Under the pieces are notes generated by a model, which saw only the letters and a list, made by a program, of their open reading frames with translations, did no database searches and was not told the origin of the DNA. The position numbers were made by a program, and so were the translations under genes. From Thermosinus carboxydivorans Nor1 (GTDB lineage Bacteria; Bacillota; Negativicutes; Sporomusales; Thermosinaceae), in assembly GCF_000169155.1 (NCBI RefSeq), contig NZ_AAWL01000019.1, positions 1-47,154 of the forward strand: a stretch of 47,154 nt of DNA, given 5' to 3'. This document shows positions 24,327-40,900 of the stretch, piece after piece. Within the stretch, counting starts at the first letter, position 1; every line of letters starts with the position of its first letter.

Positions 24327-25166
24327 ATGAACCTGCTCCAAACCGATTTTGCCGTTATCGGCGGCTCAGGCACGCTGTCCAGTGATTTTCCCTTGGGCGC
24401 CGGCGATCCAGGGGTTAAAATTTTAGCCGATGATTTGTTTTTTGATACGCCCTATGGTATGAGTCCGCCGTTTCGTTTATTTAGTGTTGACGACCGGCAG
24501 GTACTGACCTGCAAAATGCACGGCTGGCGCAGCGGCACAAGCCGTGCCGACGCTTCTCGGCAAGTTTTCTGGGTGCTGCGGGAAACGGGTGTCAAACGGA
24601 TTATTGCCGAGGGGGGCGTGGGGTCGGTCAATCACCTGCTCGATCCCCGCGACGTTGTTGTTCCCGATGACTATATTGATCTCTCCTTGCGTAAGGACGT
24701 GGGCTTGGAGGGAAAATATCTACTGGTGATGCGCGACGCCTTGTGTCCGGAAATTCGTAGCGCCCTTGTCGCCGCCGCCCGCGAGCGCTACGGGGGCCGC
24801 ATTTTTACCAGGGGCGTCTATGCCGTCACCGAAGGACGCCACTTCGAAAGTCCGGCGGAAATCAGAATGCTGCGCGGTCATGCCGACATTGTCGGTCAAA
24901 GCCTGTGCCCGGAAGTTTATCTGGCCCGGGAAATTGGCGCCTGTTATGCCGGTCTCTATTTCGTGGTCAATTATGGCGAGGGCGTCGTCACAGACTGGTC
25001 CCATCAAGAGTTAAAGGCTATTTTTTATAATGACGCGCCCCTTATCAGCCGTATTTTGCTGGACGCTATCCGCCGCTTAGCGCCTGCTGGCGCCTGTCAG
25101 TGCCGGGACCTTAGGAAAGAGACGCTGCTGAAAGGTGTTTACAGTCCGGCCGATAATATGATATAG
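24327..25166 (+). CDS. MTAP/PNP-family nucleoside phosphorylase in the menaquinone operon
   Basis: It is a class I nucleoside phosphorylase resembling 5'-methylthioadenosine phosphorylase. The 279-residue protein has a phosphate loop AVIGGSGTLSSDFP near the N-terminus, RIIAEGGVGSVNHLLDPRDVVVPDDYIDLSLR, and the substrate block GRHFESPAEIRMLRGHADIVGQSLCPEVYLA. ATG 24327 lies 21 bases after mqnC. The pathway needs an enzyme that removes adenine or hypoxanthine from (aminodeoxy)futalosine. That is usually MqnB or MTAN; neither is here, so this gene may fill the step by phosphorolysis. That is inference from position. It could also be an ordinary MTA phosphorylase for methionine salvage. Confidence 0.82.
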   Translation: MNLLQTDFAVIGGSGTLSSDFPLGAGDPGVKILADDLFFDTPYGMSPPFRLFSVDDRQVLTCKMHGWRSGTSRADASRQVFWVLRETGVKRIIAEGGVGSVNHLLDPRDVVVPDDYIDLSLRKDVGLEGKYLLVMRDALCPEIRSALVAAARERYGGRIFTRGVYAVTEGRHFESPAEIRMLRGHADIVGQSLCPEVYLAREIGACYAGLYFVVNYGEGVVTDWSHQELKAIFYNDAPLISRILLDAIRRLAPAGACQCRDLRKETLLKGVYSPADNMI

Positions 25167-25195
25167 TTTGGTCTTAAAAGGGGGAATGTCTAATA

Positions 25196-26738
25196 ATGGA
25201 TGTTAATGGAAAAGAACAGGTCCTGGTGATGGACTTTGGCGGGCAATACAGCCAGCTCATCGCCCGCCGCATCCGGGAGTGCGGCGTGTACTGCGAGATT
25301 GTACCCTTTCATACCCCGGTGACGGGAGATTCTTGATCGGCAGCCACGGGGCATCGTCTTTTCCGGTGGTCCTTCCAGCGTGTACAGTGAAGGGGCGCCA
25401 AAATGTGATCCGAAAATCTTTGCTATGGGGATTCCCATCCTTGGCATCTGCTATGGTATGCAGCTGACCGCCCATTTGCTGGGGGGCGAGGTTGCTCATG
25501 CCACGTCCCGCGAATATGGCAATACGCGTCTGTATATTGACGACAACAGCGGTCTTTTTGCCCAGCTTGACCGCGAAACGCAGGTGTGGATGAGCCACGG
25601 CGACTATATTGCTACCCCTCCCGAAGGGTTTGCCGTGACCGCTCATACCAACAGTACGCCGGTGGCAGCCATGGCCGATCCGGTAAGGCGTATCTACGGC
25701 GTCCAGTTCCATCCGGAAGTGGCTCATACGCCTGAAGGACTGAAGATGCTGCGCAATTTTCTGTTTGATATCTGTGGCTGCCGCGGCGACTGGAACATGG
25801 GTTCTTTTGTCGACCAGGCGGTGAAAGCTATTCGCCGGCAGGTGGGCGATAAGCGGGTGCTATGCGCCCTGAGCGGGGGCGTCGATTCATCGGTAGCCGC
25901 CGTGCTGGTCCATAAAGCGGTGGGTGACCAGTTAACCTGCGTCTTTGTCAACCACGGTTTGCTGCGCAAGGGCGAGGCGGAGCAGGTGGTTAAAACCTTC
26001 CGCGACGGTTTTCATATCAACTTGGTTTATGTGGATGCCAGCGAACGCTTCTTAAACCGCCTGCGCGGCGTTACCGACCCGGAACAGAAGCGCAAAATTA
26101 TCGGTGAAGAATTTATCCGCGTGTTTGAAGACGAAGCGCGTAAGCTGGGCGATATTGAGTTTTTGGTCCAGGGCACGCTTTATCCCGATGTCATTGAGAG
26201 CGGAACAGCCACGGCGGCGGTTATCAAAAGCCACCATAACGTAGGCGGTCTGCCCGAAGATATGCAGTTCAAATTGGTCGAGCCATTGCGTGACCTCTTC
26301 AAAGACGAGGTTCGCATTTTGGCCCGCGAGTTAAATTTGCCGGAGGATATTGTTTGGCGACAACCATTTCCCGGCCCCGGTCTTGCTATCCGGATTATCG
26401 GCGAAGTTACGGAAGAGCGGCTCGAGATTTTGCGGGAAGCTGACGCCATTGTCCATCAGGAAATCAAGATTGCCGGTCTTTACCGTAAGGTATGGCAGTC
26501 GTTTGCCGTCCTGCCGGCCATGAAGAGCGTCGGTGTCATGGGCGACGAGCGTACCTATGCGTATACAGTTGGTCTCCGCGTCGTGTCCAGCGAGGATGGA
26601 ATGACGGCCGACTGGGTGCGTCTGCCCTATGAAGTGTTGGATGTGATTTCCCGCCGAATTGTTAATGAGGTGAAAGGTGTCAACCGCGTTGTCTATGATA
26701 TTACGTCTAAGCCACCATCCACAATCGAATGGGAGTGA
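25196..26738 (+). CDS. guaA: GMP synthase (glutamine-hydrolysing), interrupted by an apparent +1 frameshift
   Basis: It aminates XMP to GMP using glutamine and ATP. ATG 25196 starts [42 protein letters not shown], after which the frame ends at TGA 25334-25336. The family sequence continues in the next frame as [20 protein letters not shown] through to 26738. Removing one G from GGG at 25324-25326 restores [14 protein letters not shown]. Downstream are the GATase Cys (GICYGMQL), FHPEV, the PP-loop [12 protein letters not shown], the dimerisation domain and the final PSTIEWE. It is about 513 residues when repaired, the normal length. The gene is next to, but not under, the guanine riboswitch. 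Confidence 0.88.
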
Positions 26739-26793
26739 CAACAGATAAATCCGAACGTTTTTCCTTGTTGAAACGGAATAGTTCACTTTTTTG

Positions 26794-26822
26794 TTGACAG
26801 TGTTGGTTGCCGCTGGTACAAT
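26794..26822 (+). promoter_or_regulatory. strong sigma-A promoter of the purine operon
   Basis: TTGACA (26794-26799), a 17-base spacer and TACAAT (26817-26822) form a near-perfect promoter. Transcription should begin near 26829, about 20 bases before the guanine aptamer, so the whole tandem riboswitch is in the leader. Confidence 0.9.
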
Positions 26823-26849
26823 AAAAAACGTAGACAACATATTGCTCCT

Positions 26850-26918
26850 ACTCGTATAATTTTGAGAATATGGCTCAAGAGTCTCTACCGGGCAACCGTA
26901 AATTGCCCGACTACGAGT
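26850..26918 (+). ncRNA. guanine riboswitch aptamer (purine class)
   Basis: The three-way junction is complete. P1 is ACTCGTA (26850-26856) with TACGAGT (26912-26918). P2 is TTGAG (26862-26866) with CTCAA (26874-26878). P3 is CGGGCAA (26889-26895) with TTGCCCG (26903-26909). The conserved TATAAT, GTCTCTACC and loop sequences GAATATGG and CCGTAAA are in place. The discriminator is C26911 (GACTAC context), which pairs with guanine; adenine sensors have U here. It lies 310 bases before the permease and directly before a second aptamer. Confidence 0.95.
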
Positions 26919-27044
26919 GAAAGTGTACCTAGGGTTCCGCATGGCCGGTGCTTATATTCGGCTATGGCTGCGACCGAGTGGTACAGGTGTTACCCAGTAG
27001 CGCCACACCGATGGGATAAAAACCCGGGCGGGGAAGTTTCGCTC
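26915..27044 (+). ncRNA. ykkC-type aptamer, probably PRPP riboswitch, in tandem with the guanine riboswitch
   Basis: The conserved ykkC blocks are present: GTGTACCTAGGGTTCCG (26923-26939), ACCGAGTGGTACAG (about 26973-26986), CACACCGATGGGATAAAA (27004-27020, approximate) and ACCCGGGCGGGG (from 27022). The closing helix is GAGTGAAA (26915-26922) with TTTCGCTC (27037-27044), one wobble. ykkC subtypes bind guanidine, ppGpp, PRPP or nucleotides. The guanine aptamer directly upstream and the pur genes downstream favour PRPP. Its 3' conserved strand is also the 5' arm of the terminator, so ligand binding should switch expression on. Confidence 0.85.
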
Positions 27045-27086
27045 TTTTACGAGATGAAAATTTTCCCCTGCCTGGGTTATTGTTTT
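27021..27086 (+). terminator. regulated intrinsic terminator of the tandem riboswitch
   Basis: AACCCGGGCGGGGAA (27021-27035) can pair, with a bulge and a wobble, to TTCCCCTGCCTGGGTT (27063-27078), followed by ATTGTTTT. The 5' arm lies in the conserved 3' part of the PRPP-type aptamer, so aptamer and terminator are mutually exclusive. Only one terminator serves both aptamers. Confidence 0.85.
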
Positions 27087-27159
27087 CACCGGCTGGTGGC
27101 GGCGGTAAATGGGAGGGATTTACTCAAAAGACAAATGCGACTTGGGAGGAAAAAGAAAA

Positions 27160-28530
27160 ATGTTGGAAAAGTTGTTTGAGCTGAGCGCGCGGAAAACGGA
27201 CGTTAAAACAGAAGTTATGGCCGGCATTACCACTTTCATGACCATGGCCTACATTTTGTTCGTCAATCCTAGCATTTTAGGGGCGGCCGGCATGGATAAA
27301 AACGCCGTCCTGTTGGCAACGGCTCTTGGCGCCGGTTTGGTGACGATTATGATGGGACTTTTTGTCAACTATCCTATTGCCTTGGCGCCTGGCATGGGCC
27401 TGAACGCGTTTTACGCTTTTACCGTTGTTATTGGCATGGGTGTTTCCTGGCAAGTAGCGCTAGGGGCAGTATTTATTTCCGGTCTTATCTTTATTCTGCT
27501 CACTGTTACTAATATTCGTCAGCTTTTGGTAGAGGGGATGCCGACATCGCTTAAACATGCGATTACCGTCGGTATTGGTCTGTTCATTACCATTATCGGC
27601 TTAAAATTGTCCGGCATTATGAGTATTCGTCTTTCCCTTATTCCGCCGACGCTAGAGAAAATCGTCGCCGCCAAAGGCAACGGCACGCCCATGCACTTTG
27701 AGACGATTATTGAGCTCGGCAAGCTGGCCGATCCCCATGTTCTTCTGGCTGTTTTCGGTCTTGTCCTGATTGCCGTACTAATGGCCCGCAATGTGCGCGG
27801 CGCTATGCTCATCGGCATTCTTACTACTACGATAATCGGTATTGTCATGGGCATTGTAAAGATCCCGGCCGGCTTCAGCCCCATTGCCGTGCCTGATTTC
27901 AGCCGCAACGCTTTCTTTGCCCTTGACATCTGGGGCGCCATTCATATGGGCCTTTTGACCATCATTTTTACCTTTACCTTTGTTGAATTGTTTGACACCA
28001 TGGGCACCCTGGTGGGCGCCGCCACCAAAGCCGGTCTGGTAGACAAAAACGGCAAGTTCCCCGGTATCGGCAAAGCCATGATGGTCGATGCTACCGGTGT
28101 AAGCCTGGGCGCTCTGCTTGGCACCAGTACTATTACCGCCTATGTGGAGAGCGCGGCCGGTATCGGCGCCGGCGGCCGCACCGGCTTGACGGCGATTGTC
28201 TGCGGCATTCTCTTCTTACTTGCCTTGTTCTTTACGCCGCTGGCCGGTCTTATTCCCGACGCGGCTACCGCGCCTGCTCTCATCATTGTTGGCGCGCTTA
28301 TGCTCGAGTCGGTTCGCCACATTGATTTCAGCGATTTTACCGAAAGTATGCCTGCTTTTGCTACTATCGTCCTGATGCCTTTTACCTACAGCATTGCCAA
28401 CGGCATTTCGGCCGGTCTAGTGCTGTATCCGGTCCTTAAGCTGGTAAGCGGGCGGGGCCGGGAAGTTCACTGGATCGTTTATATTCTGGCCGTGCTCGTC
28501 GTTCTTCGTTTCATCTTTCTCTCTGAATAA
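27160..28530 (+). CDS. pbuG: NCS2-family purine base permease (AzgA/PbuG-like)
   Basis: It imports purine bases, probably hypoxanthine, guanine or adenine, by proton symport. The 456-residue protein has about 12-14 hydrophobic helices and AzgA-like motifs: EVMAGITTFMTMAYILFVNP, ALAPGMGLNAFYAF, TFVELFDTMGTLVGAA and GTSTITAYVESAAGIGAGGRTGL. ATG 27160 has GGGAGGA nine bases upstream; ATG 27109 lacks a site. It is the first gene after the tandem riboswitch, so salvage and synthesis are under one control. A long hairpin separates it from purE. Confidence 0.9.
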   Translation: MLEKLFELSARKTDVKTEVMAGITTFMTMAYILFVNPSILGAAGMDKNAVLLATALGAGLVTIMMGLFVNYPIALAPGMGLNAFYAFTVVIGMGVSWQVALGAVFISGLIFILLTVTNIRQLLVEGMPTSLKHAITVGIGLFITIIGLKLSGIMSIRLSLIPPTLEKIVAAKGNGTPMHFETIIELGKLADPHVLLAVFGLVLIAVLMARNVRGAMLIGILTTTIIGIVMGIVKIPAGFSPIAVPDFSRNAFFALDIWGAIHMGLLTIIFTFTFVELFDTMGTLVGAATKAGLVDKNGKFPGIGKAMMVDATGVSLGALLGTSTITAYVESAAGIGAGGRTGLTAIVCGILFLLALFFTPLAGLIPDAATAPALIIVGALMLESVRHIDFSDFTESMPAFATIVLMPFTYSIANGISAGLVLYPVLKLVSGRGREVHWIVYILAVLVVLRFIFLSE

Positions 28531-28547
28531 GATTATTTGTTGATTTT

Positions 28548-28587
28548 AACCCAGATACTAAGAAAAAGCCTTAGTATCTGGGTTTTA
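28548..28587 (+). terminator. 15-bp hairpin between permease and purE
   Basis: AACCCAGATACTAAG (28548-28562) pairs perfectly with CTTAGTATCTGGGTT (28570-28584), 7-base loop, followed only by TTAAAT. It may act as a leaky terminator or an RNA-processing site that sets the ratio of permease to biosynthetic mRNA. Alternatively it merely protects an mRNA end. Confidence 0.6.
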
Positions 28588-28611
28588 AATACCGCAAAGG
28601 AGTGTTTGAAA

Positions 28612-29106
28612 GTGAAAGTAGCCATTATTATGGGCAGCGATTCCGATTTGCCTATCTTGAGGCCGGCGCTGGAAACATTGCAAGATTTTGGCATCGATAC
28701 CGAAGTGGTGATTGCTTCGGCTCACCGTACGCCTCATAAAGTTCACGAATTCGCCGCTACAGCGGAAAAACGCGGCGTCAAGGTGATTATTGCCGCTGCC
28801 GGCGCCGCCGCCCATCTTCCCGGCGTTGTAGCCAGTTTTACCACCCTGCCGGTTATTGGTGTGCCGGTTAACAGCACATCTCTTGGCGGGCTTGATGCGC
28901 TGCTAAGCATTGTCCAAATGCCTTCCGGCATCCCGGTAGCTACAATGGCCATAAACGGCGCCAAAAACGCCGCTATCTTCGCCGCGCAAATCATCGCAAC
29001 CGGCAATGCCGCTCTTGCTGCCAAACTGGCCGCTTACCGCCAAAAAATGGCTGCCGAAGTGGAACAAAAGGCCGCCCGGGCCCAAGAAAAACTGCAAGCA
29101 AATTAA
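28612..29106 (+). CDS. purE: 5-(carboxyamino)imidazole ribonucleotide mutase / AIR carboxylase PurE
   Basis: It forms CAIR in de novo purine synthesis, either from N5-CAIR (class I) or directly from AIR and CO2 (class II). The 164-residue protein has IIMGSDSDLP at the start, SAHRTPHKVHEF, AAAGAAAHLPGVVAS and MPSGIPVATMAI. GTG 28612 is chosen because it follows AAAGGAGTG and matches the family start; the frame is open from 28537. No purK follows, which is unusual for class I. CO2-rich growth or class II chemistry could explain that. Confidence 0.93.
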   Translation: MKVAIIMGSDSDLPILRPALETLQDFGIDTEVVIASAHRTPHKVHEFAATAEKRGVKVIIAAAGAAAHLPGVVASFTTLPVIGVPVNSTSLGGLDALLSIVQMPSGIPVATMAINGAKNAAIFAAQIIATGNAALAAKLAAYRQKMAAEVEQKAARAQEKLQAN

Positions 29107-29125
29107 ATGAAGGGGGAAAAGTTTT

Positions 29126-29842
29126 ATGGAAAAACAACCGCTTTATGAAGGAAAAGCCAAAAAAATCTATGCGACCGACAATGCGGATGAACTATTGGTG
29201 TACTACAAGGATGACGCCACGGCTTTTAACGGCATTAAACGGGGAACGATTTTGAACAAAGGTGTGCTCAACAATAAAATTTCTGCCTTTTTCTTTGAGC
29301 TATTAGGAAAGCATGGGATTAAACATCATTATATCCGCACGATCAGCGACCGTGAAATGTTGGTCAAAACCTTGAAGATCCTGCCAGTCGAAGTTGTCGT
29401 CCGCAATATTGCGGCCGGATCGCTTGCCAAGCGGATTGGTTGGGAAGAAGGTAAGAAACTGCCGACTACGGTACTTGAGTTCTACTACAAAAACGATGAG
29501 CTGGGTGACCCGCTCATTAACGACTATCACATTAAAGCTCTCGGACTGGCTACCGAGGACCAAGTGAAAACCATGGCTGAGACAGCGCTTAAGATAAATG
29601 ATATTCTCGGCGCCTATCTAAAAGAAAAGAACCTAGAGCTAATCGACTTCAAACTGGAGTTTGGTCTGCACAAGGGCGAACTGCTGCTGGGCGATGAAAT
29701 CTCGCCTGATACTTGCCGCTTCTGGGACAGTCGTACCGGGGAGAAATTGGACAAGGATCGTTTCCGCCGTGATCTGGGTAATGTGGAAGAGGCCTACAAG
29801 GAAGTGTTGTACCGCTTGACCGGGGAGGTCTTTGCCGACTAG
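29126..29842 (+). CDS. purC: phosphoribosylaminoimidazole-succinocarboxamide synthase
   Basis: It ligates aspartate to CAIR with ATP, giving SAICAR. The 238-residue protein is typical: [31 protein letters not shown] in segments, [54 protein letters not shown] and [16 protein letters not shown] 29126 lies 20 bases after purE with GAAGGGGGAAA upstream. Confidence 0.97.
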
Positions 29843-29863
29843 GCTGCGGAAAGGAGACTAGCT

Positions 29864-31282
29864 GTGTACTACGATTTTCGGGCTGATAAGCTGCGGGAGG
29901 AATGTGGCGTTTTCGGCATCTTCTCCCGCCATGACGACGTGGCGCTCAATACCTATTGGGGTCTATACGCCCTGCAGCACCGGGGGCAGGAAAGCGCCGG
30001 CATCACTGTTACCGACGGCAGTGAAATGGAGGTTCAGCGCGGTATGGGGCTGGTAGGCGAGGTGTTCCGCCGGGGCCTGCCTTCGCTGCGCGGCCATATT
30101 GCCATTGGTCATGTTCGCTATTCAACTACCGGTTCCAGTTTGCTTGCAAATACTCAACCGCTGTTGGTAACTTATTCAGGCGGACATATCAGCTTGGCGC
30201 ACAACGGCAATCTGACTAACGCCCGCGAGCTCCGACAGGCGCTGGAAAAGCAGGGCAGCGTCTTTCAAACTTCGATGGACAGCGAAGTCATCGTGAATCT
30301 CATTGCCCGTTCGTCGCAAGCTACTATTGAGGACAAAATTAAAGAAAGCCTAGCCCGCATAGAAGGGGCTTACTGCCTGGTCATTATGACCGAAGATAAA
30401 TTAATCGGCGTGCGCGACCCTCATGGCTTTAGGCCGCTGTGTCTCGGCCGGCTAAATGGCGGCTGGGTTATTGCCTCCGAGTCATGTGCTCTTGACACGG
30501 TGGGCGCTGAACTGGTGCGGGATATCGAGCCCGGCGAGATGGTGGTCATCAGTGATGCAGGTGTGAAGTCCGAGCGGTTTGGTAGGGAAGACCGCAAAGC
30601 CTTATGTGTTTTTGAGTATATCTATTTTGCCCGTCCCGACAGCGTCATCGACAGACAAAGCGTATACGAAGCCCGTTTCCGCATGGGGCGACAGTTGGCC
30701 AGGGAAAGTGGGCTGGTAGCCGATATCGTCATATCGGTGCCTGACTCGGGCACCACCGCGGCCTTGGGTTTTAGTCACGAAACCGGTATCCCCTATGCCG
30801 AGGGACTGATTAAGAACCGTTATATCGGCCGCACCTTCATCCAGCCGGAGCAAAAAAAACGTGATCTCGGCGTACGGATGAAACTTAACGCCGTTCGCCA
30901 TATCGTGCAGGGCAAGTCGATTATTATGGTTGACGATTCTATCGTTCGGGGGACGACAAGCGGCAAAATTGTGCGTATGCTGAAAGAGGCTGGCGCAGTA
31001 GCGGTACACATGTGCGTCAGCTCGCCGCCGATCGGCTTCCCCTGCTATTACGGTATTGACACAGCCGTACGCAAAGAACTTATCGCCGCCACCAAACAGG
31101 TAGAAGAAATCCGTCAGTTCATTGGCGCCGACTCGCTGCACTACCTATCGCTCGACGGCCTGAAACAGTCTATTACGAATGTGGACAGCGACGCCATGTG
31201 CTACGCGTGTTTCAACTGCGATTATCCGGCTGGTACGCCGACATGCGCCGCTGCAGGAGGGAATAAATATGTCTTTGAATAA
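29864..31282 (+). CDS. purF: amidophosphoribosyltransferase
   Basis: It makes phosphoribosylamine from PRPP and glutamine, the first step of purine synthesis; its substrate is the likely ligand of the leader riboswitch. The 472-residue protein has a 13-residue propeptide before the nucleophile Cys14 (LREECGVFG). It has the GATase block [12 protein letters not shown], the PRPP loop [16 protein letters not shown], and cysteines for the 4Fe-4S cluster of the Bacillus-type enzyme (KALCVF, MCVSSPP...PCYYG and [10 protein letters not shown]). GTG 29864 has AAAGGAG upstream. It overlaps purM by 14 bases. Confidence 0.96.
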
Positions 31283-32333
31283 CGAGACCGGGCTGACTTA
31301 TCGTGATGCGGGTGTAGATATCGATGCCGGCAACGCGGCGGTAGCCTTGATTAAAGAGCATGTACGCTCTACCTATCGTCCTGAGGTGGTCGGCGACATC
31401 GGCGGTTTTGGCGGCCTGTTCGCCCTGAATATCGGCAAATATCGCCAGCCGGTACTGGTATCTGGGACCGACGGGGTGGGCACTAAATTAAAAATTGCCT
31501 TTCTTCTCGACAAACACGACACCATTGGCCAGGATGCCGTTGCCATGTGTGTTAATGACATCTTGGTCCAAGGGGCGGAGCCGCTGTTTTTCTTGGATTA
31601 TCTTGCTGTCGGCAAATTAGAACCGGCAAAAGTGGCGGCCATCGTCGCCGGTGTCGCTAAAGCCTGCCGCGAGTCCGGGTGCGCTCTCATTGGCGGGGAA
31701 ACGGCGGAGATGGCCGGCTTTTATCCTGACGGCGAATATGATATTGCCGGCTTTGCCGTCGGGGTGGCGGAACGGGAACGGCTCATTACCGGTGAAAAGA
31801 TCCGGCCGGGCAATGTCCTTATCGGCTTGCCTTCCAGCGGCCTCCATTCCAACGGTTATTCACTGGTGCGTAAAATTTGTTTTGATGTCAAGGGCTTTGC
31901 GCCGGACGTCTACATTCCCGAACTTGGAAGGACGCTGGGCGAAGAGCTTTTGGAGCCTACGCGGCTGTACCCGCGTGTTTGCTTGCCGCTCCTTGAACGG
32001 TTTGATATCCGGGGCATGGTGCATATAACCGGCGGCGGTTTTTATGATAACATCCCGCGCGTGCTGCCCGCCGGCTGCGCCGTGGAAATTGACGCCGGCG
32101 CCTGGCCCATGCCGCCTATCTTTGCTTGCCTTCAGGCTTGGGGGCAGGTAGCGTGGCCCGAGATGTACCGGACCTTTAACATGGGCATCGGCCTCATTCT
32201 CATCGTGCCGGCCCAGGAGGCGGATGCCGTCCGGGACGACCTGGCGGCGCGCGGCGAAGCCTGCTACGTTATTGGCCGGGTCGTGGCCGGAAATGGCGAA
32301 GTGGTTCTTAAAGGAGGCGTTTTTGGTGAGTAA
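31269..32333 (+). CDS. purM: phosphoribosylformylglycinamidine cyclo-ligase
   Basis: It closes the imidazole ring of FGAM to AIR with ATP. The 354-residue protein starts [14 protein letters not shown]. It has [66 protein letters not shown], the [16 protein letters not shown] block and FNMGIGL. ATG 31269 follows GCAGGAGG inside the end of purF. Confidence 0.96.
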
Positions 32334-32946
32334 GGTGACGCTGGGCATACTGGCTTCCGGCCGGGGGTCCAATGCCCAAGCCATCATGGACGCCATCCGG
32401 CGCGGCGAAGTCGACGCCACGGTGGGCATTATTATCAGCGATAATCCGGCCGCGCCGGTGTTGGCGCGTGCGGCCGAATACGGCGTGCCGGCGCGCTGCA
32501 TCGAACGCGCCGGCTTTGCCACCCGGGAAGCGTTTGAAAAAGCGGTGGCTGATGAACTGGCGGCCCACGGGGTGGAGCTTGTCGTGCTGGCTGGCTTCAT
32601 GCGCCTGCTCAGTCCCTACTTTATTAATCGTTTCCCCGGCCGGATCATGAATATCCATCCATCGTTGCTACCGGCTTTCCCGGGACTTGATGCCCAGGGG
32701 CAGGCGCTACGCTACGGCGTTAAGGTCGCAGGCTGCACGGTTCATTTTGTTGACGAAGGGATGGACAGCGGCCCGATTATTCTCCAGGAGGCCGTGCCGG
32801 TCCGGGATGACGATACACCTGCTACGTTAGCCGAACGCATTTTGGCCGTCGAGCATGTTCTTTACCCGCGGGCGATTTCCTTGTATTGCCAAGGGCGGTT
32901 AGTTGTGGACGGGCGGCGGGTGCTAATCCGGGAAGGAGAGAAATAA
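32326..32946 (+). CDS. purN: phosphoribosylglycinamide formyltransferase (folate-dependent)
   Basis: It formylates GAR using 10-formyl-THF. The 206-residue protein has [19 protein letters not shown], the catalytic region [14 protein letters not shown] and [20 protein letters not shown], then [22 protein letters not shown] 32326 follows AAGGAGG eight bases upstream and overlaps the purM stop by 8 bases; the longer open frame from 32224 is not family-like. Confidence 0.95.
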
Positions 32947-32947
32947 C

Positions 32948-34489
32948 ATGAAGATAAAACGCGCACTCATCAGTGTTTCCGATAAACGGGGCCTGGTTGA
33001 ATTTGCCCAAAAACTTTGCCGGTTAGGGGTTGAACTCATTTCTACCGGCGGCACTTTGCAAGTTTTACGCGATGCCGGCCTGCCAGCGGTTTATGTTGGT
33101 GACGTTACCGGCTTTCCTGAGATGATGGACGGTCGGGTGAAGACACTGCATCCCCGTATCCACGGCGGTATCTTGGCCGTGCGGGACAATCCTGAGCATG
33201 TGGCAGCGTTGACGGCGTACAATATCCCGGCCATTGACATGGTCGTCGTCAATCTGTATCCGTTTCGCCAGACGGTGGCCAAGCCCGGCGTTACCCTGGC
33301 CGAAGCGGTAGAAAATATTGATATCGGTGGGCCGGCTATGGTACGAGCGGCCGCGAAAAACTTCCGCCATGTGGCCGTTGTGGTCAACCCTGACCGCTAC
33401 GGGGAAATCAGCGAGCGCCTGGCGGTGGATGGCGATCTCACGGTTGAATACCGTATGGCCTTGGCTCGGGAAGCGTATTACCACACCGCCGAATATGACG
33501 CCTGTATTGCCGCCTATCTTGACGGGCAGCTTGGCGCGGGGTCATTTCCCGCAAAATTGCACTTGGTGTTTGAAAAAGTACAGGATCTGCGGTATGGGGA
33601 AAACCCGCATCAGCAGGCCGCCTTTTATCGGACCAAATATTTTGCCGGTGGCGGCATAGCCACGGCCCGGCAGCTCCATGGCAAAGAACTTTCCTTTAAT
33701 AATATCGTTGACCTAGAGGCTGCTTACGCTTTAGTCAACGAATTCGCTCAGCCGGCAGCGGTTATTATTAAGCATACCAATCCGTGCGGCACCGCCATCG
33801 CCGCTAGCCTTGCCGAAGCTTATGCCAAAGCTTACGCCGCTGACCCGGTATCGGCGTTCGGCGGCATCGTCGGGCTTAACCGTCCGGTAGATAAGGCGAC
33901 AGCCGAGCAGATTAGCGCCGTCTTTACCGAGGCGGTTGTTGCGCCGGGCTACAGTGATGAGGCCCTTGATCGCTTGCGCCAGAAGAAAAACCTCCGCTTG
34001 CTTTTGGCTGCACCAGCCGGCACTACCGCTACCGAATGGGACATCAAAAAGGTGTCAGGCGGTATTCTGGTGCAAGAGACCGACCGGGCGGATGCCGACC
34101 AGGCTGATATGAAGGTAGTTTCCCAGCAGGCGCCGAGTGCCGCTGAATGGGAGGATTTGCTCTTTGCCTGGAAAGTGGTAAAACATGTAAAATCGAACGC
34201 CATTGTCGTCGCCAAGGGCGGGCAGACCCTTGGTGTTGGCGCCGGTCAGATGAATCGGGTGGGCGCGGCCCAAATTGCGCTGGCCCAGGCCGGAGGAAAA
34301 GCCCAAGGGGCGGTACTGGCTTCTGACGCCTTTTTCCCTTTCCGTGATACGGTGGACGCAGCTGCTCGGGCCGGCATCCGCGCTATCATTCAACCTGGTG
34401 GCTCGGTACGGGACGACGAAACCATCCAAGCGGCTAATGAGCACGGCATTGCGCTGGTGTTTACCGGTGTGCGCCATTTTAAACACTAG
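32948..34489 (+). CDS. purH: bifunctional AICAR formyltransferase / IMP cyclohydrolase
   Basis: It carries out the last two steps to IMP. The 513-residue protein has an N-terminal MGS-like cyclohydrolase ([53 protein letters not shown]) and a C-terminal transformylase ([56 protein letters not shown]). ATG 32948 follows AAGGAGAG, one base after purN. Intact at both ends. Confidence 0.97.
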
Positions 34490-34501
34490 GGGGTGGCGCT
34501 A

Positions 34502-35779
34502 GTGCGTATATTAGTAATCGGCAGCGGCGGCCGGGAGCATGCTTTGGTCTGGAAGCTGGCGGCCAGTCCGCGCGTTACGCAAATCTACTGTGCGCCGGGT
34601 AATCCGGGCATCGCCGCACTTGCCGAATGTGTGTCCATCGATGCCAGCGATATCGCCGCTCTGCGCCAGTTTGCGCTTGAGCGGCAAATCGACCTGACGG
34701 TGGTCGGGCCCGAACTGCCGCTAATGCAGGGCCTGGCCGATGAATTTGCCGCCTATGGACTTAAAGTGTTTGGCCCTAAGCAGGCGGCGGCCCGCATCGA
34801 AGGATCAAAAGCCTTTGCCAAAGCCCTAATGCAGAAATATAACATTCCGACGGCGAAGTTCGCCGTTTTTGAGGACATAGCCGCCGCCATGGATTGTATC
34901 CGGCGCTGGGGAGCGCCGGTTGTCGTTAAGGCCGACGGTCTGGCAGCCGGCAAGGGAGTGGTAGTGGCCCAAACGGTGGCAGAGGCCCTTGATGCCGTGC
35001 AGACCATTATGCGCGACCGGGCGTTCGGCGCTGCCGGTAACCGGGTGGTTATCGAAGAATATATGGAAGGTGAGGAAGCTTCGGTGCTGGCCTTCACTGA
35101 CGGCTATACCGTCGTTCCCATGGTGGCTGCCCAAGACCACAAGCGCGCCTGTGACGGCGATCATGGTCCGAATACGGGCGGCATGGGCGCCTACGCCCCG
35201 GCGCCGGTGGTGACGGCGGCGGTGCGTGAACGGGTAGTGCGGGAAATTTTGCAACCGGTAGTGGACGCACTGCGGCAGGAAGGCTGTCTGTATCAGGGCT
35301 GCCTCTACGCCGGGCTGATGATTACCGCCGACGGACCGAAAGTAGTGGAGTTTAACGCCCGTTTCGGCGACCCGGAAACACAGGCTGTGCTGCCTTTGCT
35401 GGCGAGCGACCTGGTTATGATAATGGAAGCCTGTGTTGACGGACGGCTGCACGAAATCGACATCGCCTGGGCGGACGGGGCGGCAGTTTGTGTCGTCGCT
35501 GCCGCCGGCGGCTATCCGGGGCCATACCGTAAAGGCGATGTTATCAGCGGTCTTGCTGCCGCCGAAGCAGCAGGCGCGCTAATCTTTCACGCCGGTACCG
35601 CCATTAGCGATGGCAAACTGGTAACCAGCGGTGGGCGGGTACTCGGGGTAACGGCCTGCGCCGAAACTATTGCTACCGCCGTGGACAAAGCGTACCGGGC
35701 GATAAATAATATTAATTTTGCCAATATCCATTACCGCCGGGATATTGCCCAGCGGGCACTAACAAAAGCCAGGGACTAA
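34502..35779 (+). CDS. purD: phosphoribosylamine-glycine ligase
   Basis: It joins phosphoribosylamine and glycine with ATP to GAR. The 425-residue ATP-grasp protein has RILVIGSGGREHALVWKL, APGNPGIA, VVGPELPL, GSKAFAK, VVKADGLAAGKGVVVA, NTGGMGAYAP and VEFNARFGDPETQAVLP. GTG 34502 fits the family start and has GGGGG eight bases upstream; GTG 34493 is also in frame. A terminator overlaps its stop codon, so the riboswitch-controlled operon ends here. Confidence 0.96.
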   Translation: MRILVIGSGGREHALVWKLAASPRVTQIYCAPGNPGIAALAECVSIDASDIAALRQFALERQIDLTVVGPELPLMQGLADEFAAYGLKVFGPKQAAARIEGSKAFAKALMQKYNIPTAKFAVFEDIAAAMDCIRRWGAPVVVKADGLAAGKGVVVAQTVAEALDAVQTIMRDRAFGAAGNRVVIEEYMEGEEASVLAFTDGYTVVPMVAAQDHKRACDGDHGPNTGGMGAYAPAPVVTAAVRERVVREILQPVVDALRQEGCLYQGCLYAGLMITADGPKVVEFNARFGDPETQAVLPLLASDLVMIMEACVDGRLHEIDIAWADGAAVCVVAAAGGYPGPYRKGDVISGLAAAEAAGALIFHAGTAISDGKLVTSGGRVLGVTACAETIATAVDKAYRAINNINFANIHYRRDIAQRALTKARD

Positions 35780-35793
35780 TTTACCCTGGCTTT
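35763..35793 (+). terminator. terminator at the end of purD
   Basis: AAAAGCCAGGG (35763-35773) pairs with CCCTGGCTTTT (35783-35793). The 5' arm lies in the last codons of purD, so the stop codon is in the loop. The T-run in the arm gives the U-tract. Confidence 0.85.
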
Positions 35794-35873
35794 TCGATTT
35801 GGCCTGAAATTTGCAGGTAAAACCGCCGCCATGGGCGAAAACTATGAAAAAGGATTACGGCAGGTGAATAGTA

Positions 35874-36386
35874 ATGGATTGGAGCGCGGTACTTGCCAAC
35901 CTGGGTTTCGCCGTCCTGCTGCTGGCCGGTTTGGGGCTGACGCTCGTCGGTCTGCCCGGCAATTGGTTGGTCATGGGGCTGGCGCTGATTTATGGGTATT
36001 GGGAAGGCTTTCAGCATTTCCACGCCAAACTACTGCTCGTGCTGTTTGGTTTGGTCCTGGCCGGTGAAGTGGCCGAGTTCACCGCCGGCGCGATTGGCGC
36101 CAGAAAAGCGAAAGCATCAAGAGCAGCGACGGCAGCAGCCATAGCAGGCGCTTTTGCCGGCGGGATTGCCGGAACTGCCCTGCTGCCGGTCGTAGGAACG
36201 CTTTTCGGCGGCATGGCGGGCGCTTACGGGGCCAGCTACCTGGCTGAGTATGTCCGGACAAACGACGCCGCGCAGGCCGGGCGGGTCGCTCGGCAGGTTA
36301 TGCTGGGACAGCTTGCCGGCACCCTCTTTAAGTTGGCGGCAGGGGTGGTCATGGTCATTCTAGCCATCATAAATTTACCCTGGTAA
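35874..36386 (+). CDS. DUF456 family membrane protein
   Basis: This 170-residue integral membrane protein is of unknown function. It has a first helix with the family block LAGLGLTLVGLPGNWLVMGLALIYG, then LLVLFGLVLAGEVAEF. A Gly/Ala-rich region follows (AAAIAGAFAGGIAGTALLPVVGTLFGGMAGAYGASYLAE), which resembles glycine-zipper segments, and a final helix (LAAGVVMVILAII). ATG 35874 has CAGGTGA upstream. It lies between purD and purL with a GNAT gene; no link to purines is evident. Confidence 0.85.
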   Translation: MDWSAVLANLGFAVLLLAGLGLTLVGLPGNWLVMGLALIYGYWEGFQHFHAKLLLVLFGLVLAGEVAEFTAGAIGARKAKASRAATAAAIAGAFAGGIAGTALLPVVGTLFGGMAGAYGASYLAEYVRTNDAAQAGRVARQVMLGQLAGTLFKLAAGVVMVILAIINLPW

Positions 36387-36411
36387 TTAGGGGCGAGGGA
36401 GGAGAGGCAAA

Positions 36412-36849
36412 ATGACGGACAGACTGGTTATCCGACCGGCAACGGAAGGCGATCTTCCGGCCATCTTCGCCTTGTATGGCGAATTAGCGAAAGCGTATGA
36501 AAACAGCGAGGACAACGATGAAGCCTGGCGAGAGGCGTGGCAGGACAAGCGGCAGCATATCCTGGTCGCAGAACAAGACGGCGAGGTGGTGGGTACCTTG
36601 ACTTGTGTCATTATTCCCAACCTTGGCCACGGGGGGCAGCCTTGGGCGGCAGTGACCAATGTGGTCGTGGCGGCGGCTCATCGCGGGCAAGGCATTGGTA
36701 CGGCGCTTATGGCCGAGGCCACCCGCCTGGCCAAAGCGGCCAACTGTTACAAAATCGTTCTCTCCAGCAACCTGGTGCGGACCGAGGCACACGAGTTTTA
36801 CCGACGCCTTGGCTGGCGGCAGACGCACATCGGATTTTCCCTGGAGTAA
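36412..36849 (+). CDS. GNAT family N-acetyltransferase
   Basis: It is an acetyl-CoA-dependent acyltransferase with an unknown acceptor. The 145-residue protein is one GNAT domain: LVIRPATEGDLPAIFALY at the start, a WAAVTNVVVAAAHRGQGIGTALM strand-loop-helix with the acetyl-CoA motif R-G-Q-G-I-G, and a terminal NLVRTEAHEFYRRLGWR. GGGAGGAGAGG precedes ATG 36412. It may share a transcript with the DUF456 gene. Confidence 0.88.
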   Translation: MTDRLVIRPATEGDLPAIFALYGELAKAYENSEDNDEAWREAWQDKRQHILVAEQDGEVVGTLTCVIIPNLGHGGQPWAAVTNVVVAAAHRGQGIGTALMAEATRLAKAANCYKIVLSSNLVRTEAHEFYRRLGWRQTHIGFSLE

Positions 36850-36859
36850 GCTGCTTACA

Positions 36860-36895
36860 CGTGAAATAGCCCCCTTTATTGGGGGCTATTTCACG
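36860..36895. terminator. hairpin between convergent GNAT and LysR genes
   Basis: CGTGAAATAGCCCCC (36860-36874) and GGGGGCTATTTCACG (36881-36895) form a perfect 15-bp stem with a 6-base loop between convergent genes. It has no clear T-tract on either side. It is best read as a shared, possibly bidirectional terminator. Confidence 0.65.
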
Positions 36896-36911
36896 TTCGC
36901 GGAGCAGACGC

Positions 36912-37790
36912 TCATAACATCTCAATGAATTTTTGGGCTGCCAGCGGCAGCGGGATGTGGCGGTTGGATACTATTCCCCGGTAGCGGTAAGGGATGGGGG
37001 CTGCCACATCCAGGATAAAAATTTCGCCCCGCTCCACCTCGGTTGCGACGTATTCTTCAGCCACAAACGAAAGTCCCAAACCAATTTTGGTCAACTCAAT
37101 CAACAGATCAACACTTCCCAACTCTACTTCGGGGGTGATGGTCACGCCGCCGGTCGCGAGCAATTCGTCAAAAAAATGCCGCGTTACCGTGTTTTTTTCC
37201 AGCATGAGAAGCGGGTAGCAGGCCAGGTCGGTGAGGGATAACGTTTGGCCGCGCAACCGCTCAAACGCCGGACCGGCAATAAACACATCCCGGATGGCGG
37301 TACGGCGGTGGACGGTAAAATTCTCCGGCAGACAGGCGGGCAGATTGACGGCAGCCAGATCGACGGCGCCTTTTTTTAATAATTCCAAGCAGACGGGAGA
37401 TGTGCGGTTTATGATTTTCAGCTTAATATTAGGGTAGCGCTGAATAAATTGCCGCAGGTACGGCAGGAGATAATATTTACAGATAGTATCGCTGGCGCCG
37501 ATTTTAATTTCGCCTTCCTGCAGGGAGCGGATTTGGCGGACGGCGCGCTCCCCGGTTTTAATAATGTGAAAGGCTTGTTCAATATGGGAAAATAACCGCT
37601 CGCCCTCCTGCGTGAGAGATACTTGCTTGGTCGTGCGGACGAATAGGCGGCACCCCAGGCTGGTTTCCAACTGTTTTACGGCCTGGCTGACGGCCGATTG
37701 AGAAATGTACAGATCGCTGGCTGCCTCGGAAAAGCTGAGATGCTTGGCTACATAATAAAAGACTTTGTAGAGTTCAAAATTGATGTTCAT
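36912..37790 (-). CDS. LysR family transcriptional regulator
   Basis: It is a DNA-binding regulator with an effector domain. The 292-residue protein has an N-terminal winged helix-turn-helix (about 1-62: FEAASDLYISQSAVSQAVKQLETSLGCRLFVR, approximate segment, and VSLTQEGERLF). A linker helix follows, then a periplasmic-binding-like domain (about 92-292: GEIKIGASDTICKYYLLPYL). ATG at 37788-37790 faces purL across 110 AT-rich bases. Its effector is unknown. Divergent LysR genes usually control the neighbour, so purL or its own gene is the likely target. Confidence 0.9.
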   Translation of the reverse strand: MNINFELYKVFYYVAKHLSFSEAASDLYISQSAVSQAVKQLETSLGCRLFVRTTKQVSLTQEGERLFSHIEQAFHIIKTGERAVRQIRSLQEGEIKIGASDTICKYYLLPYLRQFIQRYPNIKLKIINRTSPVCLELLKKGAVDLAAVNLPACLPENFTVHRRTAIRDVFIAGPAFERLRGQTLSLTDLACYPLLMLEKNTVTRHFFDELLATGGVTITPEVELGSVDLLIELTKIGLGLSFVAEEYVATEVERGEIFILDVAAPIPYRYRGIVSNRHIPLPLAAQKFIEML

Positions 37791-37822
37791 TAATTAACAT
37801 CCTTTATAAATGATATTATTTA

Positions 37823-37858
37823 TATTAATTATTATAATTAATAATAGCGTGTTATAAT
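37823..37858. promoter_or_regulatory. palindromic operator and -10 element between lysR and purL
   Basis: TATTAATTA (37823-37831), TTA, TAATTAATA (37835-37843) is a perfect 9-bp inverted repeat. TATAAT (37853-37858) follows as a purL -10. The matching -35 position (37830-37835) lies in the palindrome and is a poor match, as in activator-dependent promoters. It is a candidate LysR binding site, although AT-rich palindromes can arise by chance. Confidence 0.5.
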
Positions 37859-37900
37859 CTATATGTAAATTGTTTTTTTGTATTAAAGGGGGCGGCACAA

Positions 37901-40900
37901 TTGACACAACCTGTGCGCAGAATTTATGTAGAGAAGAAGGCGGATTTTGCGGTTGAGGCGCAAAATTTATACACCGACCTTAAAGTGAATTTAGGAATTA
38001 CCGGCCTGACGGGCGTGCGGGTGGTCAACCGCTATGACATGGCCGGGGTAAGCGAGGCTGAATATGTTCAGGCACGCACCACGATTTTTGCGGAACCGAC
38101 GGTGGACGAAGTCTATGATGAAGAACTGCCGCTGGCAGCGGGTGACCGCGTCTTTGCTATAGAATATCTGCCCGGCCAATATGACCAGCGGGCTGATTCG
38201 GCGGCGCAATGCCTGCAAATTCTAACCCAGCGGGAGCGGCCGACGGTGCTTGCGGCCAAAGTTATTATTCTGCAGGGTGATTTATCGGACGATGATTTTG
38301 ACCGCATCAAGCACTACTGCATCAATCCCATCGAGTGCCGCGAGGCGGCGCTGACCAAACCGGACTGTTTGGAGATGAGTGCGCCGCCGCCAGCTGACGT
38401 AACGGTTCTGACCGGGTTTACTACTATGGCTGCTGCGGAACTGGCGGCGCTTCACGCCAAACTCGGGCTGGCGATGAGTTTGGAAGATCTGTCGTTCTGC
38501 CAGGTCTATTTCCGGGATGAAGAACGGCGCGATCCTACCATAACGGAAATTCGGGTTATCGACACTTATTGGTCTGACCATTGCCGGCACACCACCTTTC
38601 TGACCAAAATCGAAGACGTGGTGATTGAAGAGGGGCGCTACAGCCGGCCGGTTGCTGACGCCTTTGCGGCTTATTGCCAGACGCGGGCCTATGTCTTCGG
38701 CGAGGCGGCAAAGGATATGTCCCTCATGGACATTGCCACAATCGGGATGAAGGAAATGAAAAAGCGTGGCTTGCTGGCTGATCTTGATGAGTCTGATGAA
38801 ATCAACGCCTGCAGTATTGTTGTTAACGCCGAGGTAGACGGCCGGACGGAAGAATGGTTGGTCATGTTTAAAAATGAAACCCATAACCATCCGACGGAAA
38901 TTGAACCTTTTGGCGGCGCGGCAACCTGCCTGGGCGGTGCGATCCGCGATCCGCTTTCCGGGCGGACTTATGTCTATCAGGCTATGCGCGTTACCGGCAG
39001 CGGCGACCCGCGTGCAAAAATTGAAAGCACGCTGCCCGGCAAACTGCCACAGCGGAAAATTACCATCGGCGCGGCGGCAGGGTACAGCTCCTATGGCAAC
39101 CAGGTAGGGCTGGCCACTGGCCAGGTGGCGGAACTTTATGACGAGGGGTATATCGCCAAGCGGATGGAAATTGGCGCGGTCATTGCCGCCGCCCCGCGGC
39201 GCAATGTTGTACGGCAGCGGCCCCAGCCCGGCGATGTCGTGCTGCTGGTCGGGGGGCGAACAGGGCGGGACGGCTGCGGCGGCGCTACCGGCTCTTCCAA
39301 GGAGCATAACTTGGAATCTTTGGCGACGTGCGGTGCCGAGGTACAAAAAGGCAATCCGCCAACCGAGCGGAAGCTTCAGCGCTTGTTCCGCAATCCCGCC
39401 GTCAGCCGGCTGATAAAAAAATGCAACGACTTCGGGGCTGGCGGCGTTTCGGTTGCCATTGGCGAACTTACCGACGGCGTGCGGATCAATCTCGACGCCA
39501 TCCCCAAAAAATATGAAGGTCTGGACGGCACTGAACTGGCTATTTCCGAATCGCAGGAGCGGATGGCCGTCGTTGTGGCCGGCGACCAGGCTGATAATTT
39601 CATTCGCTATGCCGCGGCCGAAAACCTTGAGGCCACGGTCGTAGCCGAAGTAACGGCAGAGCGGCGCATGCGCATGTTCTGGCGCGGCCGGGCGATTGTT
39701 GACCTCAGCCGCGACTTTCTCAATACCAACGGGGTGAAGCAGCGGGCAAGCGTCGTTGTCGCCGCTCCGCCGGCCGAAGCAAACTGGTTTGAAAAATTGC
39801 CGGACGGCGTCCGACCCGCGCTGCCCGATCTTAGGGCAGCCTGGTTGGCAAATCTTCAGGACCTCAACATCTGCAGTCAAAAGGGATTGGTCGAGCGCTT
39901 TGATAGTACCATTGGCGCCGGTACGGTGCTGATGCCGTTCGGCGGTAAGTACCAGGCGACACCGGCCGAAGGCATGGCGGCCAAGCTTCCCGTCCTTGAC
40001 GGCGAGACGACAACAGCTACGTTGATGACTTTTGGTTTTCAGCCGCAGCTTGCTACCTGGAGTCCTTTTCACGGCGCCGTTTATGCTGTCGTGGAGGCGG
40101 TGGCCAAAAGTGTGGCCATGGGTGGCGACTACCGGACGATACGGCTGACTCTCCAAGAATATTTTGAGAAGCTGGGCAAGGATCCGCGCAAATGGGGCAA
40201 GCCGTTCAGCGCCCTGCTCGGCGCTTTCTATGCCGAAAAAGAGCTGGGCATCCCGGCGATTGGCGGCAAAGACAGCATGTCCGGCACTTTTATGGACCTT
40301 AATGTGCCGCCCACGCTCGTGGCTTTTGCCGTCAACGTGACTGACGCCGGTCGCATTGTGTCGCCTGAATTTAAAGAAGCGGGTAACTTGGTCGTATTTA
40401 TTCCGGCGCCACGTGATGAGCAAGAATTGCCCCGTTTCGAAGTTTTGCGCCGTAATTTTGCCAAGGTGACGGAGCTTGTCCACGCTGGCCTTGTCCGGGC
40501 GGCCAGCACGGTGCGCTACGGCGGTTTAGCGGCGGCGCTGAGCAAAATGGCCTTCGGCAACCGCATTGGTTTTGTTGCCGCGGCCCAGCTGGCGCCGGAA
40601 GCATGGTTTAGCGCCGACTATGGCTCCTTTGTTCTCGAGCTGGACGGCAAGGCTGATCTAAGCATGCTGGCGGACGTAGATTATGTTGTCCTCGGCCATA
40701 CCGCCGCCGCTCCGGTCATCCGCCTGGGTCAAACGGAAATTTCCCTGGACGAGGCCTATACCGCCTGGGAGCAGCCGCTGGAAACGGTCTTCCCCACCAA
40801 GGCGCCCGAGCCGCCCAAGCCCAGGGTGATTGTCTGCGAGCGGCGGAGCAGAAAAGGCAGCGTCCGCCTTGCCAAACCGCGCGTTTTCATCCCCGTGTTT

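Follow-up and report, generated by a model that had tools for sequence, protein, structure and literature searches.

The window analysed here, a stretch of 47,154 nucleotides from Thermosinus carboxydivorans Nor1, contains a row of purine genes, a permease followed by purE-C-F-M-N-H-D, behind a leader that holds a promoter, two aptamers with a strand in common and an intrinsic terminator. The features are as follows (positions in the window; + is the forward strand).

26794-26822, +, sigma-70 type promoter (TTGACA-17-TACAAT, with TG before the -10 box, an extended -10)
26832-26933, +, guanine aptamer (RF00167 match, 93.5 bits, E 4.3e-16)
26915-26919, +, shared strand: 3' side of the guanine P1 and 5' side of the PRPP-aptamer P0
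26915-27044, +, PRPP-type (ykkC subtype 2b) aptamer including the extended P0 (RF00442 match at 26918-27032; match to R1, our PRPP-tandem model, at 26917-27041)
27005-27031, +, P3 with the S-turn (A74-C78 at 27005-27009, G95-G97 at 27026-27028, G96 at 27027)
27021-27086, +, shared intrinsic terminator (27021-27044 with 27051-27078, then UUAUUGUUUU)
27160-28530, +, NCS2/AzgA-type purine permease, pbuG-like (PF00860; RBS GGGAGG at 27144-27149; start codon picked by the RBS)
28537-29106, +, purE (TIGR01162, 206.9 bits, cut-off 149.6; open reading frame as listed, the real start being probably later)
29126-29842, +, purC (TIGR00081)
29864-31282, +, purF (TIGR01134)
31269-32333, +, purM (TIGR00878)
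32335-32946, +, purN (TIGR00639)
32948-34489, +, purH (NF002049 and TIGR00355)
34493-35779, +, purD (TIGR00877)

The products of purE, purC, purF, purM, purN, purH and purD each scored above an NCBIfam cut-off. The permease gave no match to the NCBIfam models, and its three solved relatives are the adenine/guanine permeases AZG1/AZG2. A scan of 25100-38000 on both strands returned 15 terminator-like sites, fewer than the mean of 18.2 in shuffled sequence. Standing apart from the row, purL is a single gene of 1256 residues (37901-41671) preceded by an oppositely oriented LysR-type gene, and no Rfam gathering match precedes it in a search of the whole window. At about 25320-25350 the guaA frame appears broken, its N-terminal part and the rest lying in different frames (seen by eye within 25196-25400); the open frame fits the guaA model from position 55 only, which may reflect a real lesion or a sequence error, and the stretch from a sister genome (L078) ends inside guaA.

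To place the leader among its relatives, we searched genomes of the window's class, where at least 60 of 380 have a ykkC-type match and at least 99 a purine match (E up to 1e-4, stricter filters); 14 control genomes gave a ykkC-type match in one and a purine match in two. Within the order, 27 of the 28 genomes contain a ykkC-type match, and reading the match lists by eye placed a tandem in 25 of them, at 27 loci, with the ykkC-type match starting 85-87 bases after the purine match in every case. One genome (G289) has a singlet (L181) instead of the tandem, PRPP-type by 91.6 against 64.0 bits, and another (G296, 72% complete) gave neither a ykkC-type nor a purine match. Beyond the order, nine tandem pairs from eight genomes were fetched among the class matches listed. 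A pattern scan of named genomes added 60 stretches, including Sporomusa, Pelosinus, Thermoanaerobacter, Alkaliphilus, Brevibacillus and Paenibacillus. The junction pattern used, which was read from the tandem family itself, does not occur in 100 shuffled versions of the window; conservation of the tandem junction among the 60 named loci is circular, because these loci were chosen by that pattern, whereas G96 and the 3' strand of P0 lie outside it. The 96 tandem loci collected in this way reduce to 78 distinct leaders when the second aptamer's first 95 bases are used to merge them.

An earlier note, made from the letters of this DNA, had described a near-consensus promoter and a complete guanine aptamer with C26911 as its discriminator, and both descriptions held. 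The promoter matches the consensus at 11 of 12 positions. Scanning 26700-27200 gave two promoter sites against a mean of 0.5 (sd 0.8) in shuffles, the other one (26831-26860) lying inside the aptamer, and similar boxes were seen by eye, uncounted, 5' of many relatives' leaders. The aptamer belongs to RF00167, the gathering cut-off being 37 bits, and is the sole Rfam gathering match in the whole window. Its P1 pairs 26849-26856 with 26912-26919, as checked pair by pair. In purine aptamers the specificity base is C for guanine and U for adenine; here it reads as the guanine-type C26911, at the position that we take to be that of the guanine-specifying C74. The triplet CUA stands at the specificity site in all 96 tandem loci, 36 of which were picked without a pattern fixing CUA.

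The second aptamer begins, as the note had claimed, within the last bases of the first, its RF00442 match running from 26918 while the guanine aptamer extends to 26933. Its ligand had been assigned to PRPP by context, guanidine and ppGpp being left as alternatives. RF00442 (Guanidine-I) gave 51.9 bits (E 1.6e-8 in a 421-base search) against a cut-off of 63, and position 49 is U26979, so the RNA falls outside the Guanidine-I family. Because this sub-cut-off hit was its only match, Rfam is unable to decide between the ykkC subtypes, and we therefore built three subtype models of our own from aligned copies: 29 tandem second aptamers, 25 ppGpp-type RNAs and 20 guanidine-I RNAs, the window's genus being excluded. 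The ppGpp-type and guanidine-I labels are based on the P3 motif, the Rfam score and the downstream proteins judged by eye rather than on assays, and the models cover subtypes 1, 2a and 2b out of a series that extends to 2c and 2d. On these models the window scored 121.5 bits as PRPP-tandem, 57.1 as ppGpp-type and 32.7 as guanidine-I, which makes 2b the best fit among the three subtypes, ahead by 64 bits over the ppGpp-type and by 89 over the guanidine-I model. The note had named a better guanidine or ppGpp fit as grounds for giving up its assignment, and the comparison came out the other way. All 33 sources scored (9 PRPP-type, 20 ppGpp-type, 4 guanidine-I) did best on the model expected from their layout or P3 motif, although they are relatives of the model rows and 12 of the 20 ppGpp-type sources come from the window's own genus.

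Individual bases point in the same direction. With L162, a relative from Thermoanaerobacter wiegelii, as the bridge, numbering was transferred by hand from the available text of Knappenberger et al. 2018 (PMC6031431); the letters of L162 fit at bases 74-78, 95-97, 101 and 103-105. In that text a C75-G96 pair is the mark of PRPP and a pyrimidine at position 49 a mark against guanidine. The window has G96 (G27027) opposite C75 (C27006), and U at position 49. A G occupies position 96 in 96 of the 96 tandem loci, of which 36 came from Rfam model searches instead of a DNA pattern. The models, G96 and the pyrimidine at 49 agree, and PRPP is the probable ligand.

Were the second aptamer of the ppGpp type (subtype 2a), the leader would read guanine against a stringent-response signal. 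Subtypes 2a and 2b do have P0, a pyrimidine at 49 and most conserved bases in common, and the Nor1 genome encodes five other ykkC-type RNAs (E below 1e-5), every one of which scores best on the ppGpp-type model. The ppGpp riboswitch, however, lacks G96 as a rule, and its targets in the order are leuA-, ilvC- and glutamate-synthase-like genes (by eye), whereas the window has G96, purine genes downstream, an S-turn loop with two bases on its 5' side rather than the single one of most ppGpp-type copies (by eye), and a ppGpp-type score less than half that for PRPP; we consider ppGpp a very improbable ligand. Guanidine (subtype 1) is harder still to credit. Guanidine-I is the only ykkC-type family that Rfam matched, and the P1-P2-P3 scaffold is the same, but that match lies below the cut-off, the model built on guanidine-I copies of the class itself gave the lowest score, U26979 takes the place of the A in the GAGAG motif of these copies (mapped by hand), and the window has a P0, which Guanidine-I RNAs do not. 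On the strength of the model scores and of the bases at 96 and 49 we accordingly rejected both ligands.

A third alternative concerns the pocket and overlaps with the PRPP reading rather than opposing it outright, since a PRPP gate whose set-point has moved would belong to both. In the T. mathranii PRPP aptamer, positions 101 and 104 are A and G and touch PRPP in the crystal, with G104 at the ribose and called highly conserved in the available text of PMC6031431; in the window they are G and A. Of the 96 tandem loci, 33 have A and 63 have G at position 104, and the 36 from the window's class include 22 with A, a few rows being ambiguous by one base in both counts. The A104/G101 form could then be a lineage-specific pocket with changed affinity for PRPP or for a related pyrophosphate ligand, a tuned variant, the set-point of a single logic gate having shifted from lineage to lineage. 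We think this unlikely: within the class the permease-pur row follows A104 forms (such as the window, L088, L103) and G104 forms (such as L081, L098, L109) alike, and G96 is unchanged in the A104/G101 form. The A101/G104 contacts come from one structure, and with A104 in a third of the loci we do not treat them as defining for subtype 2b.

Three ykkC-type RNAs before glutamate-synthase-like genes (L003, L178 and L182; genes judged by eye) have UGG where most ppGpp-type copies are one base shorter. Because a G thereby falls at or near position 96, the single-base G96 rule alone could mislabel them; the ppGpp-type (R2) and PRPP-tandem (R1) models gave them 99.7/59.5, 100.6/60.3 and 96.0/76.7 bits, respectively, and call them ppGpp-type.

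With PRPP as the likely second ligand, the anatomy of the leader becomes that of a tandem, the guanine aptamer lying immediately 5' of the PRPP aptamer. The P0 helix is formed from both tails of the second aptamer, 26915-26922 pairing with 27037-27044 (8 of 8 pairs possible), and five bases of its 5' strand are also the end of the 3' strand of the guanine P1 (26912-26919). By hand count, 4-5 bases separate the P1 stems of the two aptamers. There is no terminator between the aptamers and one 3' of both. The note's single terminator with a 5' arm taken from the 3' strand of the second aptamer was borne out: the arm, 27021-27044, contains the 3' strand of P3 and also that of P0 (27037-27044), and in the 3' arm the segment GAGAUGAAA mimics the P0 5' strand GAGUGAAA. 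The stretch 27018-27086, chosen by hand, folds at -33.8 kcal/mol (z -5.61), with none of 200 shuffles as stable. Its U tract is interrupted (UUAUUGUUUU), and a simple terminator scan of 26700-27200 listed none in the leader.

Pairing in P0 is kept among relatives. In 33 of the 36 tandem loci not picked by pattern the extension can form 8 of 8 pairs; the remaining three have 7, 6 and 3, the last being a locus where the rule appears one base out of register. Under the rule used for this P0/P1 count, four named loci come out without a P1 5' strand. In ppGpp-type leaders the equivalent extension forms a mean of 6.89 of 9 pairs against 5.69 (sd 0.19) when the partners were shuffled, and none of 5000 shuffles reached as high, the figure resting on 36 distinct strand pairs from 39 leaders and the shuffle ignoring relatedness. 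These leaders derive from 46 solo ykkC-model matches read among the matches listed, with L184, L205 and L214 (no motif), L008 (weak) and L181 (PRPP-type) omitted and L003 and L178 also lost because the pattern missed both.

Some leaders have only the first aptamer. Of 13 lone purine matches in the order (hand count) four were fetched, and three of these keep GAGUGAA and its partner UUUCRCUC. In genome G314, the third genome of the order without the tandem, a lone guanine aptamer (L104; G314:C28, leader near 67086) precedes the permease-purE row, with no PRPP-type match; this leader retains GAGUGAAA and UUUCGCUC, as though a PRPP aptamer once lying between these strands had dropped out. Together with the natural A104 forms, it offers ready-made material on the function and loss of the gate.

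Folding calculations without ligands placed the P1 and P0 states within 0.2 kcal/mol of one another with polymerase at 27050, P0 being favoured by 1.8 kcal/mol with polymerase at 27046. The two energies lie within 5 kcal/mol in 32 of 36 loci; this comparison has no control and takes no account of ligands or tertiary contacts, and we do not offer it as proof. In it the P1 of L079 is held by one pair only, the rule being out of register there. In the full-length leader the terminator state is ahead by about 19 kcal/mol, and the switch must therefore act during transcription. With the 3' strand of P0 lying in the 5' arm of the terminator and P1 and P0 so nearly equal, guanine bound at P1 should release the terminator and PRPP should block it.

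We thus read the leader, with a probability of roughly 0.93, as a guanine-PRPP tandem riboswitch that sets transcription of the permease-purE-C-F-M-N-H-D row through one terminator. The earlier note had proposed such a logic gate, and the proposal is supported, its working in the Nor1 RNA being inferred from the anatomy and from the published tandem. During transcription, 26915-26919 would either close the guanine P1 or contribute to P0 by pairing with 27040-27044. Guanine, by holding P1, would leave P0 incomplete and the 3' strands of P0 and P3 free for the terminator, and the genes would be off. PRPP, by holding P0 and P3, would keep the 5' arm of the terminator occupied, and the genes would be on even with guanine present. 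With neither ligand, the outcome would be set by the P1/P0 balance and the speed of the polymerase. The predicted output is purine import and synthesis whenever PRPP is plentiful or guanine is not.

The system and its ligand pair are known, a mechanism was proposed in 2018, and the Nor1 leader is most likely a well-preserved new example of a known RNA logic gate. In the available text of Sherlock et al. 2018 (PMC5912903), the tandem of Firmicutes likewise consists of a guanine aptamer followed by a 2b aptamer, with a single shared terminator and purine genes downstream; the P1 stems are typically 5 to 7 bases apart, and IMPLY-like logic was measured for the codA tandem of B. megaterium, codA being a further target of subtype 2b RNAs. 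A 2022 review counts 192 guanine/PRPP tandems in its available text (PMC9481103). Mutually exclusive P0 and guanine P1 were already proposed in PMC6031431, whose T. mathranii aptamer resembles that of the window in G96, C75, the P0 helix and the P0/P1 exclusion, and we therefore rejected strand sharing as a new idea. Among the titles listed by literature searches there was no later experimental study of the guanine-PRPP tandem, the 2022 tandem-riboswitch review, as far as its available text goes, being the only later item. The interest of the locus is as a clean case of two small-molecule signals sharing one RNA strand, in a gate kept by 25 of the 28 genomes of the order.

What appears mildly new lies in the targets and the pocket: importer-first layouts are common, xpt-type genes are also targets and A104 is frequent. 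According to the available text of PMC5912903 the genes of the tandem only include steps up to IMP, and the word 'permease' is absent from its main text; the first gene in Nor1, unlike in that tandem, is a purine permease. A literature search with subscription papers and preprints mostly outside its scope returned no paper joining 'PRPP riboswitch' and 'permease'. We recorded for the 78 distinct leaders the first downstream tblastn match to any of 14 window proteins or to the first 60 residues of the xpt-type protein of L097, a procedure to which other genes are invisible. The first match was a PbuG-type permease in 57, an xpt-type gene in 7 and a pur gene or none in 11, with too little downstream DNA in three (L118, L145 and L156). 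The note had stressed that the gate stands before an importer as well as the biosynthetic genes; the permease does precede those genes, but the placement is not special because a PbuG-type permease comes first in so many leaders, and the importer-first layout, being the commonest found, was rejected as a novelty. The product of L097 is a xanthine phosphoribosyltransferase by NCBIfam, and the other xpt-type cases match its first 60 residues. The counts suggest that, besides the steps to IMP, purine import and salvage are often under the control of the gate. Such targets would fit a rule by which high PRPP switches on PRPP-consuming purine supply.

The tandems before an xpt-type gene (L097, L115, L122, L127, L149, L157 and L171) lie outside the 'up to IMP' targets of the 2018 paper, and in L115, L122, L127 and L149 the next long frame resembles, by eye, a xanthine permease. 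In one genome the first long frame behind a guanine-PRPP tandem (L079, 1778-2854, +) encodes a membrane-like protein for which neither Pfam nor NCBIfam gave a match, and a look-alike lies behind the lone guanine aptamer of L107 in another genome; the L079 protein is a candidate for an unrecognised purine transporter.

Other arrangements of aptamers were seen along the way. T-box RNAs combined with ppGpp aptamers are a known arrangement, and in the window's genome a ppGpp-type aptamer (L005, G000:C31 24358-24460) lies 67 bases 5' of a T-box (C31 24528-24763); L002 has a T-box too, 433 bases further downstream on its own strand. In genome G294 a purine aptamer is followed by a decayed-looking PRPP-type aptamer of 36.1 bits (L106, 13179-13290, -), and the same genome also has a tandem before its pbuG-pur row (L084).
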